A DNA stretch of 35,476 nt from Methylococcales bacterium (GTDB lineage: Bacteria; Pseudomonadota; Gammaproteobacteria; Methylococcales; Methylomonadaceae), in NCBI GenBank assembly GCA_028707085.1, contig JAQTUW010000028.1:1-35476 (forward strand), in the 5' to 3' direction. Both the position numbers and the translations under genes were made by a program. The notes below the pieces were generated by a model. The model was not told the origin of the DNA. It was given only the letters and a program-made list of their open reading frames with translations, and did no database searches. Positions 16,677 through 21,907 of this stretch are shown piece after piece (within the stretch, counting starts at the first letter, position 1; each line of letters starts with the position of its first letter).

Positions 16677-17111
16677 TCAGGCGTAATTTTTCGCCCAGCG
16701 CACGATATCCTGGGCCGGCATCGCGCCGGATTGCCGAGCCAGTTCACGGCCGTTGCGGAACAATACCAGTGTCGGGATGCTGCGTATCCCGTAGCGGCCG
16801 CTGATGTCCGGCTCCTTTTCGGTGTCCAGCTTGCCCAGTCGGACTAGCGGCTCCAGCAGTTGCGCCGCCTGGACGAAAGCCGGAGCCATCATTTTGCAGG
16901 GCCCGCACCAGTCGGCCCAGAAATCCACCAATAGCGGAATGTCGTTGCGGATCAGGTTTTTTTCAAAGTTGCCGCTGTTCAGTTCTAGCGGATGCCCGGT
17001 AAACATTGCTCGATGGCACTGCCCGCATTTGGGACTCTGGCGGAGACGATCCGCAGGCAGACGATTGATGGCCGCGCAGTGAGGGCAGACCAGATGCAAA
17101 GATTCGTTCAT
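16677..17111 (-). CDS. trxC: thioredoxin 2 (zinc-binding TrxC)
   Basis: This 144-residue thioredoxin carries an N-terminal zinc ribbon (Cys9/Cys12 in VCPHC and Cys29/Cys32 in CGQC) followed by the thioredoxin fold with the active site WCGPC (Cys69/Cys72). The cis-proline loop reads RSIPTLVLF. TrxC reduces protein disulphides in the cytoplasm, and the zinc module is the mark of this type. The start chosen gives MNESLHLVCPHC, with AGGTTT as a weak ribosome site; a longer frame begins 66 bases upstream but looks unrelated. Length is close to that of E. coli TrxC (139). It lies alone between dapA and the sigma54 activator gene, all on the minus strand. Confidence 0.95.
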   Translation of the reverse strand: MNESLHLVCPHCAAINRLPADRLRQSPKCGQCHRAMFTGHPLELNSGNFEKNLIRNDIPLLVDFWADWCGPCKMMAPAFVQAAQLLEPLVRLGKLDTEKEPDISGRYGIRSIPTLVLFRNGRELARQSGAMPAQDIVRWAKNYA

Positions 17112-17201
17112 GACTAAACCTAGTTGCTGAGGGTGTTCCGGCCTAGCATAGCAGAAGGCCGAATTTTTGGTAAGCATCCGCGCCGCCGGTTTTCGCGGCG
17201 G

Positions 17202-18758
17202 CTAAGGTTTCTTATAATGACCGGCGCTGATGGCGTATTTTTTAAGTTTTCCATACACCGCTCGCGGCGTCAGGCTCATGGCGGCCGCCACCTGTCCGAC
17301 GTCGCCGCGACAGGCCTGCAGGCTCTGCTTCAGAAAGTGCTGCTCGGCGTCGTCCAGTATCCTTTGTTTATGTTTTCGCCAGTCGGTTTCGGCCCTGGCC
17401 AGTTGTTCCTGGTCGAGTTCAAGCTGAACCAGTTCGCCGCCTTTGCAAAACAGCACGCTTCGCTCCAGCGTATTTTCCAGTTCGCGCACATTGCCGGGCC
17501 AGGGATAGGCGCGGATCTGGCCCATGACTTCCCGGCTGACGGTCTGCACGTTACGGCCGTATTTTTCATTGAGGCGTTTGAGAATCAGTTGCACCAGATG
17601 CGGCAAATCCTCCGGGCGTTGCGCCAGCGGCGGGATCCACAGCCGCACCACGTTCAGGCGGTAATACAGATCCTGGCGGAACAGCCCCTGTTCGACGTGC
17701 TGTTCCAGTTGCCGGTTGCTTGCCGAGACGATGCGCACATCGACGCTTAAAGTATGCTTGCCGCCCACCCGTTCCATTTCGCCTTCCTGCAAGACCCGCA
17801 GCAGACGAGTCTGGGCGGCCGGCGACAGCGCGTCCACTTCGTCCAGAAACAGGGTGCCCTGTTCGGCGCGCTCGAAAAAGCCCTGATGGACTTCTACCGC
17901 CCCGGTGAAAGCGCCTTTTTCGTGGCCGAACAGGGCGCTTTCGATCAGGCTTTCCGGTATCGCGCCGCAATTGATGGCCACGAAGGGCCGGTGGCCGCGT
18001 TCGCTCATGGCGTGAACCGCCCGGGCGATGAGTTCCTTGCCGACGCCGGTAGCGCCGTTGATCAGCACCGTCGCCCGGGTCGGCGCAATGATTTCGACCT
18101 GCTGCAAAATCCTTTGCATGGCCGGCGAACGGGCGATGATGGCCGGGGCCGGCCGCACGGCATGCTGTGCGGGCTTGCTGCGCCAGACATTGCCCATCCG
18201 TTCTTCGATGCGGGAATGCAGTTCGTCCATTTCCGGTCTGGCTTCGCGCTGATCCTCGCGGCGGTATTCCAGTCCGGGCTTGCCGGCCGCGGCTTCGCTG
18301 CTGGTATGAATGCAGACTTCGCAGCCGCCGTCCCGCCTGGCGATGCTTTGGCGGATTTCGACCTTGGCGTAGCCGAAATTACGCGCCGCGATGCCGCCGA
18401 ACACGCTGGACGTCATCCTGCACAGTTCCGGAAACTCGATGACGCCTTCGCCGAATGGGCAGCGGCTGTTGACCACGCTGATGGAGTCGGCGTTCACCGA
18501 AGCCAGCGAAAAATTGCCGCCGATGCGGTTTTTTAGCCCCAGTATCAGGTCGATATAGTCTTCCCGGTTCAGTTCACCCTGTTTGCGGTACTCGCTACGG
18601 TAGCTTTGTTCGAAATAAACGCCGGTGCTGTCGGCGATGCGCTCGATCAGCGAGGCGTAATAGTTTCCGCCTTCCTGTTCGCAGGCATGCATCAGCTCCA
18701 GTATGAAGGTTTGCAGAAAGAACACCGGGGAAAGCCGGGAAAAATTATGTTCGTTCAT
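17202..18758 (-). CDS. sigma54-dependent activator with MetOD1/V4R-like sensor domain
   Basis: This 518-residue activator has three parts. Residues 1-155 form a sensor with Cys26, Cys100, Cys113, Cys146 and Cys149 (SRCPFG, PELCRMTSSVFGG, GGCEVCIH), resembling the 'methanogen output domain 1' family, related to the V4R/XylR-N sensors. A charged linker follows, then the AAA+ core with Walker A GATGVGKE (235-242), the sigma54-contact loop GAFTGA (282-287), Walker B TLFLDEVDA (302-310) and the arginine-finger region FRQDLYYRLN. The end (about 485-510) is a Fis-type helix-turn-helix. There is no receiver domain, so the ligand or redox signal is probably sensed directly. The clustered cysteines suggest a metal, iron-sulphur or thiol sensor. 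The gene is divergent from the DUF938 operon, whose -24/-12 promoter lies 111 bases away, so it is very likely its activator. Confidence 0.92.
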   Translation of the reverse strand: MNEHNFSRLSPVFFLQTFILELMHACEQEGGNYYASLIERIADSTGVYFEQSYRSEYRKQGELNREDYIDLILGLKNRIGGNFSLASVNADSISVVNSRCPFGEGVIEFPELCRMTSSVFGGIAARNFGYAKVEIRQSIARRDGGCEVCIHTSSEAAAGKPGLEYRREDQREARPEMDELHSRIEERMGNVWRSKPAQHAVRPAPAIIARSPAMQRILQQVEIIAPTRATVLINGATGVGKELIARAVHAMSERGHRPFVAINCGAIPESLIESALFGHEKGAFTGAVEVHQGFFERAEQGTLFLDEVDALSPAAQTRLLRVLQEGEMERVGGKHTLSVDVRIVSASNRQLEQHVEQGLFRQDLYYRLNVVRLWIPPLAQRPEDLPHLVQLILKRLNEKYGRNVQTVSREVMGQIRAYPWPGNVRELENTLERSVLFCKGGELVQLELDQEQLARAETDWRKHKQRILDDAEQHFLKQSLQACRGDVGQVAAAMSLTPRAVYGKLKKYAISAGHYKKP

Positions 18759-18803
18759 GGTTGTCCGCAGTGAAATTAATATTCATAAATTGAAGCACGG
18801 TTT

Positions 18804-18819
18804 CATGGATTCGGCCATG
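18804..18819. promoter_or_regulatory. possible upstream activator site
   Basis: CATGG and CCATG form an inverted repeat with a 6-base spacer, about 50 bases before the -24 element of the divergent promoter. A related TTTCATG (18801-18807) is echoed as CATGAAA (18845-18851) closer to the promoter. Fis-type activators bind such dyads, so this is a candidate site for the neighbouring activator. The arms are short and chance cannot be excluded. Confidence 0.35.
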
Positions 18820-18868
18820 CAATTTTAATAAGCAACTGTTAATGCATGAAATTCGCCAGTTAAAAATT

Positions 18869-18884
18869 TGGCCCGGGGATTGCA
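18869..18884 (+). promoter_or_regulatory. sigma54 (-24/-12) promoter
   Basis: The bases TGGCCCGGGGATTGCA match the sigma54 consensus, with GG at 18870-18871 and GC at 18882-18883 separated by the required 10 bases. The predicted transcript starts near 18895, some 65 bases before the DUF938 gene. It faces away from the gene for a sigma54-dependent activator. Site, orientation and neighbour agree, so this is a strong call. Confidence 0.88.
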
Positions 18885-18946
18885 ACAGTCATTGTGGAAA
18901 CTGCGGCGGCAGGTTTTTTCCAAAAACATAAAAAATAATAAATTAT

Positions 18947-18953
18947 AGAGGAG
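18947..18953 (+). promoter_or_regulatory. ribosome binding site of the DUF938 gene
   Basis: AGAGGAG lies 6 bases before the ATG at 18960 and fixes this start. It is much stronger than most ribosome sites in the window, which fits an inducible, highly expressed operon. Confidence 0.75.
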
Positions 18954-18959
18954 CACGCC

Positions 18960-19613
18960 ATGTATAAAGATAGACCACCAATCAACCCGCACCCGCTCAG
19001 CGACTATGTAGCCTGGGCCGGAAACCGCAACCGCGAGCCGATACTGCATGTATTGAAACAAAAACTGCCCAGAGAGTCCGGCAGGGTCATGGAAATGGCT
19101 ACCGGCAGCGGCATGCATATCAATTATTTCGCACCGCATTTCGAACACCTGCAGTTTCATCCGACAGACAAGGATCAGGAGGTGTTCGACAACATCAAAC
19201 AGTTGATCGCCGACCACGGCAACCGCAATATCGCCGACCCGGTGCATCTGGATCTGACCGAAGCCGAAACCTGGCTCAACCCTGGCGAAAAAAACAGCTT
19301 CGATGTGATTTTCTGCATCAACATTTTTCAGGTGGCACCGATTTCGATCGCCGACGGCATGATGGCCTGCGCGGCGAATCTGCTCAACGAAAACGGCATA
19401 TTGCTGATCTACGGCCCGTTTAAAGTCGAAGGCGGCTTCACCACCGAGTCCAACCAGGAATTTCACAACACCTTGTCTGCCTACGACGTGCCGGAATGGG
19501 GACTCAAGGACGTGGCGGATTTAAAGGCCGCCGCCGCAGAACATGGCCTGAGCTTAAAGGAAATCATCGACATGCCCGCCAATAACTTTTCGCTGATTTT
19601 CGGCCGCGACTGA
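18960..19613 (+). CDS. DUF938 family SAM-dependent methyltransferase-like protein
   Basis: This 217-residue protein of the DUF938 family has a class I methyltransferase fold. The SAM loop is EMATGSGMH, followed by an acidic turn (HPTDKDQE) and the NIADPVHLDLT and DVIFCINIFQVAPI segments. The family opens, as here, with a conserved Pro/Asn/Arg-rich region (WAGNRNREPIL) that probably lines the active site. No substrate is established for the family. It is the first gene of a four-gene operon behind a sigma54 promoter. Its stop is 1 base before the SDR start. The methyltransferase assignment comes from the fold and motif, not from any known reaction. Confidence 0.88.
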   Translation: MYKDRPPINPHPLSDYVAWAGNRNREPILHVLKQKLPRESGRVMEMATGSGMHINYFAPHFEHLQFHPTDKDQEVFDNIKQLIADHGNRNIADPVHLDLTEAETWLNPGEKNSFDVIFCINIFQVAPISIADGMMACAANLLNENGILLIYGPFKVEGGFTTESNQEFHNTLSAYDVPEWGLKDVADLKAAAAEHGLSLKEIIDMPANNFSLIFGRD

Positions 19614-19614
19614 T

Positions 19615-20349
19615 ATGCCGGCGAACAGAATGGCGCTGGTACTGGGCGTGGGGCCTGTGCAGGGGCTGGGGGCGGCGCTGGCCAGGCGTTTCGCCGCCGA
19701 AGGCCTGCCGGTTTTTATCGCCGGCCGCAGCCAGTCCAGACTGGCGGCCGTTGCCGCCGTCATCAACGCCGAGGGCGGCGTGGCGGAGCCTGTGGTTGCC
19801 GATGCGACTGTCGAAAACGACGTGCAGCGGCTGTTCCGGACGGTGACGGCCGGCGGCCGGACGCTGGAAATCGCCGCCTACAATGTTGACAGCAACATCG
19901 CCGCGCCGCTGCTGGACACCGACGCCGAAACCTTTACCACTCTGTGGCGGCAAAACAGTCTAGGCGCTTTTCTGTTCGGCCGCGAAGCCGTCCGACACAT
20001 GCTGCCGCAACAGCGCGGCACGCTTTTTTTCACCGGCGCAACCGGATCGCTACGCGCCAGGCCGCCATTCACGGCGTTTGCCGCTGCCAAGGCCGGGGTG
20101 CGGGCATTGGCGCAAGGCATGGCGCGGGAATTCGGGCCGCAAGGCATCCATGTGGCGCACGTCGTCATCGACGGCGTGATAGACGGCGAGCGGGCGCACA
20201 GCCGGTTCCCGCAATTTGTCGAAACCAAGGGCCGCGACGGCTTGCTGCAACCGGCGGCGATAGCCGAAACCTACTGGCAGTTACATCGCCAGCACCCCAG
20301 CGCCTGGAGCCACGAAATCGATCTGCGCCCCTACAAGGAACCCTTTTAA
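19615..20349 (+). CDS. SDR-family protein lacking the catalytic tyrosine
   Basis: This 244-residue Rossmann protein is of the short-chain dehydrogenase/reductase superfamily. The nucleotide loop is GVGPVQGLG (residues 11-19), and Arg38 in AGRSQ favours NADP. At the place of the usual Tyr-x-x-x-Lys, it has Phe155-x-x-x-Lys159 (FTAFAAAK), and the serine about 13 residues before is replaced by Ala/Thr (TGATGS). Normal SDR chemistry is therefore doubtful. It may bind the cofactor as a sensor or scaffold, or use another mechanism. I recall related SDR-like proteins with the same Phe, so it is probably a subfamily trait rather than a local mutation. The stop codon overlaps the next start by one base (TAATG). 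Confidence 0.87.
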   Translation: MPANRMALVLGVGPVQGLGAALARRFAAEGLPVFIAGRSQSRLAAVAAVINAEGGVAEPVVADATVENDVQRLFRTVTAGGRTLEIAAYNVDSNIAAPLLDTDAETFTTLWRQNSLGAFLFGREAVRHMLPQQRGTLFFTGATGSLRARPPFTAFAAAKAGVRALAQGMAREFGPQGIHVAHVVIDGVIDGERAHSRFPQFVETKGRDGLLQPAAIAETYWQLHRQHPSAWSHEIDLRPYKEPF

Positions 20350-20960
20350 TGCATAACAACCATCCCGACTGGCGGCTGCAAGGCCGCTATTTCGAAACCT
20401 GTAACTGCGAAGTCGCCTGTCCGTGCATCTGGCTCCAGCCGCCCAGCGAGGGCGAATGCAAACTGCTGGTTGCCTGGCATATCGACGACGGTTATCTGGA
20501 AAACGTCCGCCTGGACAATTTGAACGTGGCGCTGGCCTGCTTTGCGGTCGGTAACATGATAGCCGGCGGCTGGAGCGCGGCGCTCTACATCGACGACCGC
20601 GCCGACAGCGAACAGACCGAGGCGATCAGCCGGATTTTTAGCGGCCAGGCCGGCGGCCACCCGAGCGTATTGATGGGCTTCGTCGGCGAAGTCTGGGGCA
20701 TTCAACAAGCGGCCATGACCTATTACGAACAGGGCGACATTCGCAGACTGAGCATTCCAGGAATCGCCGAGGCGGAAATTCAAAGCATCGTCGGTTTGAA
20801 GGGCGGCGAGGCACTGATTGAAAACCCGCCGTTGTGCGTAGTGACCAGCCACCCGGCGACGGTCGCCCGCTCGATCCGTTACCGCTACCAGGATCACGAT
20901 CAGGACTGGACGTTTTCCGAGCGCAACGGCTTCCATTCGGCATTTGTCTATCAGCCCTGA
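20349..20960 (+). CDS. DUF1326 domain protein with paired Cys motif
   Basis: This 203-residue protein opens with the hallmark of DUF1326, ETCNCEVACPCIW, placing Cys18, Cys20, Cys24 and Cys26 in a tight CxC-x3-CxC cluster likely to bind metal. The remainder (GECKLLVAWHIDDG, LACFAVGNMIAGG, HPSVLMGFVGEVWG) follows the family pattern. There is no signal peptide, so it is probably cytoplasmic. DUF1326 genes often stand beside DUF2182 genes, as here. The biochemical role is unknown. It is translationally coupled to the SDR gene by a 1-base overlap, and the downstream DUF2182 gene begins within 5 bases of its stop. Confidence 0.9.
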   Translation: MHNNHPDWRLQGRYFETCNCEVACPCIWLQPPSEGECKLLVAWHIDDGYLENVRLDNLNVALACFAVGNMIAGGWSAALYIDDRADSEQTEAISRIFSGQAGGHPSVLMGFVGEVWGIQQAAMTYYEQGDIRRLSIPGIAEAEIQSIVGLKGGEALIENPPLCVVTSHPATVARSIRYRYQDHDQDWTFSERNGFHSAFVYQP

Positions 20961-20965
20961 ACGCC

Positions 20966-21712
20966 GTGGCGTCAAGACCATTCGCCGTGCTGGCGCTGGC
21001 GATTAGCGGAGCCTGGCTGTATTTGCTGTATCAAAGCTGGCAAATGAACCATCTGCCGATGTCGCAGATGTGGATGCCGCCCGGTCGGTTAACGGACTGG
21101 GGTTTGGGCGATTTTGGCTGGGTATGGGCCATGTGGGCGGTGATGATGGCGGCGATGATGCTGCCGTCGGCCCTGCCCATGCTGTCGGCCTATTCACGCT
21201 ATTGCCGGCGCGACGCCATTGGCCGCGATTGGCGAACGCTCTGGTTCGCCGGCGCTTATCTGGCGGTGTGGATCGCGTTCAGCGCGGTGCTGACCCTGAT
21301 GCAATGGCTGTTTCACGGCCTGGCTTGGCTGTCGCCGATGATGGAAAACCGCCAGCCGCTGCTTGCGGCGGCGATTTTGCTAACCGCCGGCGGCTATCAG
21401 TTCACCGCCTTCAAACACACCTGTCTGCGCCACTGCCGCACGCCGCTGAGCTTTCTGTTGCGCCATTGGTCGCCCGGCAGCCGGGGCGCGGCGCGGCTGG
21501 GCGTGCGCCACGGCCTGGAATGCCTGGGCTGCTGCTGGGCGCAAATGTTGGTCATGTTCGCGGTGGGAGTGATGAATCTGTACGGCATGCTGATGATCAC
21601 CCTGCTGGTGATAGCCGAAAAATGGTCGCCGGCCGAAGCGAAAACGCTCAGTTACGGCAGCGGCCTTGCCTTTGTGGCCTGGGGGCTTTACAGTCTGCCG
21701 GCGGCCATATAA
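20966..21712 (+). CDS. DUF2182 predicted metal-binding membrane protein
   Basis: This inner-membrane protein (248 residues from the GTG chosen) belongs to DUF2182/COG5486, described as predicted metal-binding integral membrane proteins. About six hydrophobic segments are visible, including a Met-rich one (WAVMMAAMMLPSALPM). Two Cys-bearing landmarks are typical: FKHTCLRHCRTP and LECLGCCWAQM, the latter followed by FAVGVMNLYGM. The GTG at 20966 sits 5 bases past the DUF1326 stop and gives a natural first transmembrane segment. The only upstream ATG in frame (20834) would overlap DUF1326 by over 120 bases and add a non-family N-terminus. Met and Cys richness suggests copper, but this is inference. 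Confidence 0.87.
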   Translation: MASRPFAVLALAISGAWLYLLYQSWQMNHLPMSQMWMPPGRLTDWGLGDFGWVWAMWAVMMAAMMLPSALPMLSAYSRYCRRDAIGRDWRTLWFAGAYLAVWIAFSAVLTLMQWLFHGLAWLSPMMENRQPLLAAAILLTAGGYQFTAFKHTCLRHCRTPLSFLLRHWSPGSRGAARLGVRHGLECLGCCWAQMLVMFAVGVMNLYGMLMITLLVIAEKWSPAEAKTLSYGSGLAFVAWGLYSLPAAI

Positions 21713-21726
21713 CGTCAAGAGCCCCA

Positions 21727-21769
21727 AGCCATACGGCGCAATAGCGACAGCGTATTGCGCCGTATGGCT
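21727..21769 (+). terminator. perfect 17-bp inverted repeat (probable operon terminator)
   Basis: Arms 21727-21743 and 21753-21769 pair perfectly over 17 bases around a 9-base loop, starting 15 bases after the DUF2182 stop. No T-tract follows (the next bases are GAGGCACAAC), so termination would not be by the classic mechanism. It could act as an mRNA-stabilising or end-forming hairpin, or be a small repeat element. Confidence 0.6.
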
Positions 21770-21907
21770 GAGGCACAACGCAATACTCAGGGTCTGTAAG
21801 AGCCGGTTCGATCGGTTGACCAGCCGAAGGCTCATGGCTCATCGGCAGGTAATGGATGTCTTTTGTCAGTAAAGATCAGACAATCCGGGCGTTTTTGTTC
21901 GCCAAGG

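Follow-up and report, generated by a model that had tools for sequence, protein, structure and literature searches.

A divergent MetOD1-type sigma54 activator and a putative copper-handling operon in a Methylococcales genome, with carbonic-anhydrase-family partner genes in relatives

The 35,476-nucleotide stretch of DNA analysed here (the window) is contig C27 of the 3.02 Mb genome of a Methylococcales bacterium, whose genus we infer to be Methylomonas. It carries an activator gene with Pfam domains MetOD1 (49 bits), sigma54 AAA+ and HTH_8, divergent from four genes encoding a DUF938 protein, a short-chain dehydrogenase/reductase (SDR), a DUF1326 protein, and a DUF2182 protein that matches PpoB2 (PF09948) at 222.7 bits against a cut-off of 28.7 (Table 1). 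A first-pass annotation, made from the letters alone, had described these as a sigma54-controlled module of four tightly coupled genes, and the reading frames, families and coupling are borne out by Pfam and by the spacing: one base separates DUF938 from the SDR, the SDR and DUF1326 overlap by one base, and PpoB2 follows DUF1326 after 5 bases, its start being taken as the GTG at 20966 (our choice; the longest open reading frame starts at 20834). The methanotrophic host that it had supposed is also supported, in that the genome contains a gene with a profile match of 425.7 bits to PF02461, the ammonia/methane monooxygenase family (pMMO/AMO).

Table 1. Features of the activator–operon locus, in window coordinates
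Feature	Positions	Strand	Basis
MetOD1-type sigma54 activator (sensor, AAA+, Fis-type HTH)	17202..18758	-	Pfam
MetOD1 sensor domain, residues 18-150	18309..18707	-	Pfam, alignments, model and fold search
UAS-like palindrome 1, TGAAATTAATATTCA	18771..18785	.	conserved pair; binding putative
UAS-like palindrome 2, TGAAGCACGGTTTCA	18791..18805	.	conserved pair; binding putative
-24/-12 sigma54-type promoter, TGGCCCGGGGATTGCA	18869..18884	+	sequence, scoring
AGAGGAG, ribosome-site-like	18947..18953	+	sequence
DUF938 methyltransferase-like protein, GSG motif	18960..19613	+	Pfam, alignment
SDR, FAAAK replacing YxxxK active site	19615..20349	+	Pfam, alignment
DUF1326, seven cysteines, CNCEVACPC motif	20349..20960	+	Pfam, alignment
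DUF2182 = PpoB2 copper chaperone family	20966..21712	+	Pfam
Perfect hairpin, 17-bp arms, no T run	21727..21769	.	sequence, folding

The promoter element between activator and operon has the GG-N10-GC spacing claimed for it, and departs at one position from the sigma54 consensus TGGCAC; "perfect" was therefore slightly too strong. None of 100 dinucleotide shuffles of the promoter region scored as high as the real element, and no sigma70-type promoter match was found in 18700–21900. Upstream lie two tandem palindromes, absent from the first-pass annotation, which are likely sites for the activator. With the sigma54 interaction domain and HTH_8 of the protein, this −24/−12 target with its upstream sites gives the locus the sequence attributes of a sigma54-dependent activator of the NtrC type. 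The perfect 17-bp hairpin said to close the module is real (arms 21727–21743 and 21753–21769), the 76-nt stretch around it folding at −40.4 kcal/mol (z −8.6); no T run follows it and a terminator scan did not list it, so it can be called only a putative terminator.

Conservation was assessed in two sets of relatives. For the near set the activator was searched in 61 genomes, matching at E<1e-180 in 27 (the window's own included), and 24 loci were fetched with wide flanks, leaving out G000, G008 and G029. Facing the activator in these were DUF938 (23/24), SDR (21/24) and DUF1326 with PpoB2 (9/24); clustering also placed a gene of carbonic-anhydrase (CA) type in 12/24 (counting a remnant in L035 and an opposite-strand copy in L037). 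The wide set comprises the best 80 of 278 relatives from a sensor-alignment scan of named genomes; it overlaps the near relatives and includes near-copies, and its titles are mostly Methylococcales or Nitrosomonadaceae, with a few vague or odd labels of metagenome-assembled genomes. Genes within 4.5 kb facing the activator were counted in the 77 loci whose sequence runs for 1 kb or more in front of it, a partner being called CA-type at an identity of at least 55% to a CA query and CS2-hydrolase-like (CS2H-type) below 40%. The linkage on which the first-pass annotation had staked its claim is conserved: DUF938, SDR, CA-type or CS2H-type genes are present in 76 of the 77 loci, L077 alone having none. 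DUF938 occurs in 56, SDR in 53, CA-type in 29, DUF1326 in 26, PpoB2 in 24, CS2H-type in 19 and a YdhR-like gene in 8, the last never together with DUF1326. The picture of a complete, self-contained module is weakened by these counts, as many relatives add a CA-type gene and DUF1326–PpoB2 is optional. Some ammonia-oxidiser loci also have a Pyr_redox_2 protein (SQR-like by eye), TauE, an MBL-fold protein or DsrE.

The regulatory elements are conserved along with the genes. Promoter and palindromes were scored at p<=0.05 (100 and 20 shuffles each) in the window and 75 of the 80 wide-set loci, many of them closely related (L064, L073, L077, L099 and L129 were left out); the promoter was present in 76/76 regions and the palindrome pair likewise in 76/76. 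Scored against shuffles, 13/13 distant loci also have the promoter, and 7/13 pass the palindrome test. In 24 of 25 near loci a GG-N10-GC element (score >=9) stands 106–201 bases from the activator start. When the palindrome-pair pattern was searched in the 61 relatives, 14 of the 21 places with 0–1 mismatch among the matches listed were at the module, as were 6 of the 7 exact matches among those listed; the list did not include the 2 places of the window genome. Sigma54 control of the operon, supported at sequence level by conserved promoter and palindromes, is thus almost certain.

The recurrent partner of the activator family is a gene of the beta-carbonic-anhydrase family; in ammonia oxidisers, as in distant lineages, it resembles that of CS2 hydrolase. 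For L111 the best match of the CS2H-type protein is the CS2 hydrolase 3ten at 4.4e-52, followed by a CA at 1.2e-23. Among 369 genomes of the class, 32 had a sensor-profile match; 14 of these have full activators, as judged from score and frame length, and the others listed are shorter proteins. A CS2H-like gene (E<=1e-35) occurred in 12, and 10 genomes had it together with the full activator, in each case within ~3 kb by their coordinates. In G309 it is a CA-type gene that faces the activator. COS and CS2 hydrolases sit in clade D of the beta-CAs, and CO2 hydration is given as negligible or nil for three of them, in an excerpt of PMC8209446. The partner could instead be an ordinary carbonic anhydrase, with the operon answering the supply of inorganic carbon as CO2 or bicarbonate; this would suit the Methylomonas module CA, whose best matches are carbonic anhydrases (5ztp, 1.7e-41, compared with 3.8e-28 for the COS hydrolase 3vqj). 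We consider such a response decidedly unlikely, since the CS2H-type partner is far nearer to CS2 hydrolase, at least one CA of the module kind is present in 36 of 37 genomes of the genus (own included) and lies outside the module in the window genome, and the copper genes would be left unexplained. The best CS2H match in the window genome is a CA paralog (33%; G000 C66), itself sharing 79% identity with the CA of the module. Between DUF938 and SDR, L035 (923–1150) and G024 (C70:37331–37594) retain C-terminal remnants of the module CA, which suggests that this gene has been lost repeatedly from the module.

The sensor domain offers further clues to the signal. Its five cysteines (C26, C100, C113, C146 and C149), which the first-pass annotation thought might read a metal or redox state, are present, and C100, C113 and C146 show no variation among 43 sensors, with C149 kept in at least 90%; C26 is a cysteine in 21 of 25 near loci and falls outside the conserved columns of the 43. 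A structural model of the sensor (pLDDT 77.7) found a TRAPP subunit as its best fold match (2.4e-06), with H-NOX and the PoxR sensory domain (5frx, TM 0.56, E 1.5e-03) lower, and points tentatively to a TRAPP/V4R-like fold of ligand-pocket type; the sensor alignment had 0 sequence matches in the PDB at E<=1. Metal sites occur in PoxR/DmpR sensors, and the conserved cysteines are as compatible with a structural metal site as with metal sensing; with C26 not conserved and a predicted fold that allows a structural role, the proposed reading of metal or redox state is conjectural. A switch worked by copper binding at these cysteines or by their oxidation, with the operon answering copper status, would make sense of the invariant residues, of the copper-chaperone family of PpoB2, of the methanotrophic host and of one plasmid with copper-resistance neighbours. 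It is nonetheless unlikely given the pocket-type fold predicted for the sensor. The copper genes are also no constant target, DUF1326 being present in only 26 and PpoB2 in only 24 of the 77 loci.

The fold match to PoxR also raises an aromatic or hydrocarbon response, in which a PoxR/DmpR/MobR-like sensor would bind phenol-type compounds or products of pMMO/AMO co-oxidation, on which DUF938 and the SDR would act. MobR and DmpR are phenol sensors, and the activator has an NCBIfam MobR match that is under its cut-off and covers residues 208–508 only; every named NCBIfam regulator listed for the activator was likewise under its cut-off, and all were rejected. The known PpoB2 client is a tyrosinase according to an excerpt of PMC2855505, but none was found in the operon by Pfam or in the genome at E<=0.001, though the control of the latter search gave no signal. 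This response would leave the CS2H/CA-type linkage unexplained, and the SDR lacks its catalytic Tyr; we regard it as improbable. Like PoxR, DmpR and MobR, the window activator is a one-component sigma54 activator, and its predicted sensor fold may resemble that of PoxR; unlike them, it has MetOD1 and no XylR_N match, and its conserved neighbours are not phenol-degradation genes.

Metal handling, which the first-pass annotation had read from the residues of DUF1326 and DUF2182, is supported for the latter by its PpoB2 identity. The PpoB2 of Marinomonas mediterranea (COG5486) is of the same Pfam family and hands copper to the tyrosinase PpoB1, with which it shares an operon (PMC2855505, in the excerpt used here); that of the window shares one with DUF938, SDR and DUF1326. 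DUF1326 adjoins PpoB2 in 28 of 30 PpoB2 loci, window included, and PpoB2 itself occurs in 40 of the 369 class genomes, so that the pairing is a unit of broader distribution. All seven DUF1326 cysteines are invariant across 21 aligned proteins. We judge that DUF1326–PpoB2 probably handles copper. Of 11 plasmid DUF1326/DUF2182 regions, one lies in a copper-resistance cluster (Sulfitobacter), two lie beside a DMSP demethylase (two roseobacters) and eight have no clear theme. A PDB sequence search with DUF1326 returned TolQ only, weakly (0.025), and its fold matches were discarded for a poor model (pLDDT 60.5); a search of the literature available found no paper with DUF1326 or DUF2182, and DUF938 appears in none of the 15 papers that a search listed, which falls short of a strict test of absence. 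In 45 of 51 SDR proteins the catalytic Tyr is replaced by Phe, the pattern being unmatched in the other six, and the GSG motif is retained in 53 of 56 DUF938 proteins. DUF938 gave 0 PDB sequence matches at E<=0.01 and occurs (E<=1e-40) in 3 of the 369 genomes: that of the window, another from its order, and G382. The closest plasmid-borne copies, from Methylosinus trichosporium (58%) and Rhizobium (53%), have neighbours without clear function.

Taken together, these features suggest a divergent sigma54 switch. The putatively TRAPP/V4R-like domain of the one-component activator would bind a small hydrophobic ligand, and the loaded protein, at the two tandem palindromes, would fire the −24/−12 promoter of DUF938–SDR–DUF1326–PpoB2, with PpoB2 in the membrane and DUF1326 as its cysteine-rich partner forming a copper-delivery pair. 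The most plausible ligand is a C1-sulfur compound (CS2, COS or a product), since the recurrent partner gene resembles CS2 hydrolase or a clade-D-like CA; we put this signal forward as a reasonable candidate that falls somewhat short of an even chance. In the presence of such compounds the module would then maintain the copper supply of pMMO, and perhaps of an SBP56-type methanethiol oxidase. A sensor of a small hydrophobic molecule that switches on copper handling to protect copper enzymes is the explanation we prefer, tentatively; binding, copper client and the roles of DUF938, SDR and DUF1326 are all conjectural parts of it. A more specific version, a dedicated CS2/COS-type switch moved between methanotrophs and ammonia oxidisers and coupling hydrolysis (in the window, the response only) to copper resupply of pMMO/AMO, is doubtful.

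Several observations weigh against the preferred explanation. Although the related activators' partner genes belong to the same enzyme family as CS2 hydrolase (3ten) and COS hydrolase (3vqj), the window module has no CA-type gene, and the CS2H-type proteins, with HTQCG for the HTDCG of 3ten, are only putative hydrolases; the likeness of the Methylomonas module CA to carbonic anhydrases points the same way. A CS2H-like gene occurs without the activator in G181 and G295, the palindromes do not reach significance at 6 of the 13 distant loci, and G009 has 19 palindrome-pair places at <=2 mismatches, against 0 for a control pattern. DUF1326–PpoB2 pairs also occur in unrelated contexts, and in G382 a DUF938–SDR–DUF1326–PpoB2 operon (L248 6066–8943) is separate from the activator, no sigma54 promoter or palindrome pattern being found at it.

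In a tree of 87 activators (rooted at its midpoint, with long branches that meet; L175–L177 left out), 10 distant CS2H-linked rows stand apart from the 77 others; the distant rows were labelled by hand, and of five rows labelled "other" L135 does carry CS2H. Within the 77, the CS2H-linked Nitrosomonas rows are nested among methanotroph rows linked to DUF938, an arrangement suggestive of a methanotroph donor. DUF938-linked rows with Nitrosomonadales titles are L069, L072, L075, L081, L085 and L096, Methylobacter KS41 (L130) has both DUF938 and CS2H-type genes, and the G382 activator groups with ammonia oxidisers. In G382 a transposase-like frame (by eye; L167 11113–12360) lies between activator and CS2H-type gene.

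The link to CS2-hydrolase/CA-type genes, the palindrome pair and the cross-genome conservation are new beyond the first-pass annotation. Copper monooxygenases are essential to methane and ammonia oxidisers, the two groups in which the sensor family occurs, and defined candidate sites, a promoter and partner genes provide a testable handle on C1-sulfur sensing and copper-enzyme protection, while grouping poorly characterised families (DUF938, DUF1326, DUF2182 and an SDR lacking the catalytic Tyr) as a single regulated unit. Methanethiol is inhibitory to at least one methanotroph (excerpt of PMC9003020). A copper enzyme of C1-sulfur metabolism is encoded with a copper chaperone in the mtoX–SCO1/senC–mauG operon (excerpt of PMC5739008), although that chaperone is of another family. 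In the window genome an SBP56 gene (methanethiol-oxidase family), followed by one for an SCO1/MauG protein, lies on another contig (L307 5094–8373).

A TrxC thioredoxin gene (16677–17177) on the same strand begins 24 bases past the activator stop; among the matches listed for the loci of the 24 near relatives there is none to TrxC. A second activator (45–49%) adjoins a CS2H-type gene in three same-genus genomes (L184–L186); L184 and L186 also have FmdB there, and a ZIP transporter is seen in L184 by Pfam and in L185 by eye. Short MetOD1 proteins occur at L181–L183 and L187–L190, and among the frames listed a PAS-like or kinase-like one (by eye) often comes next.

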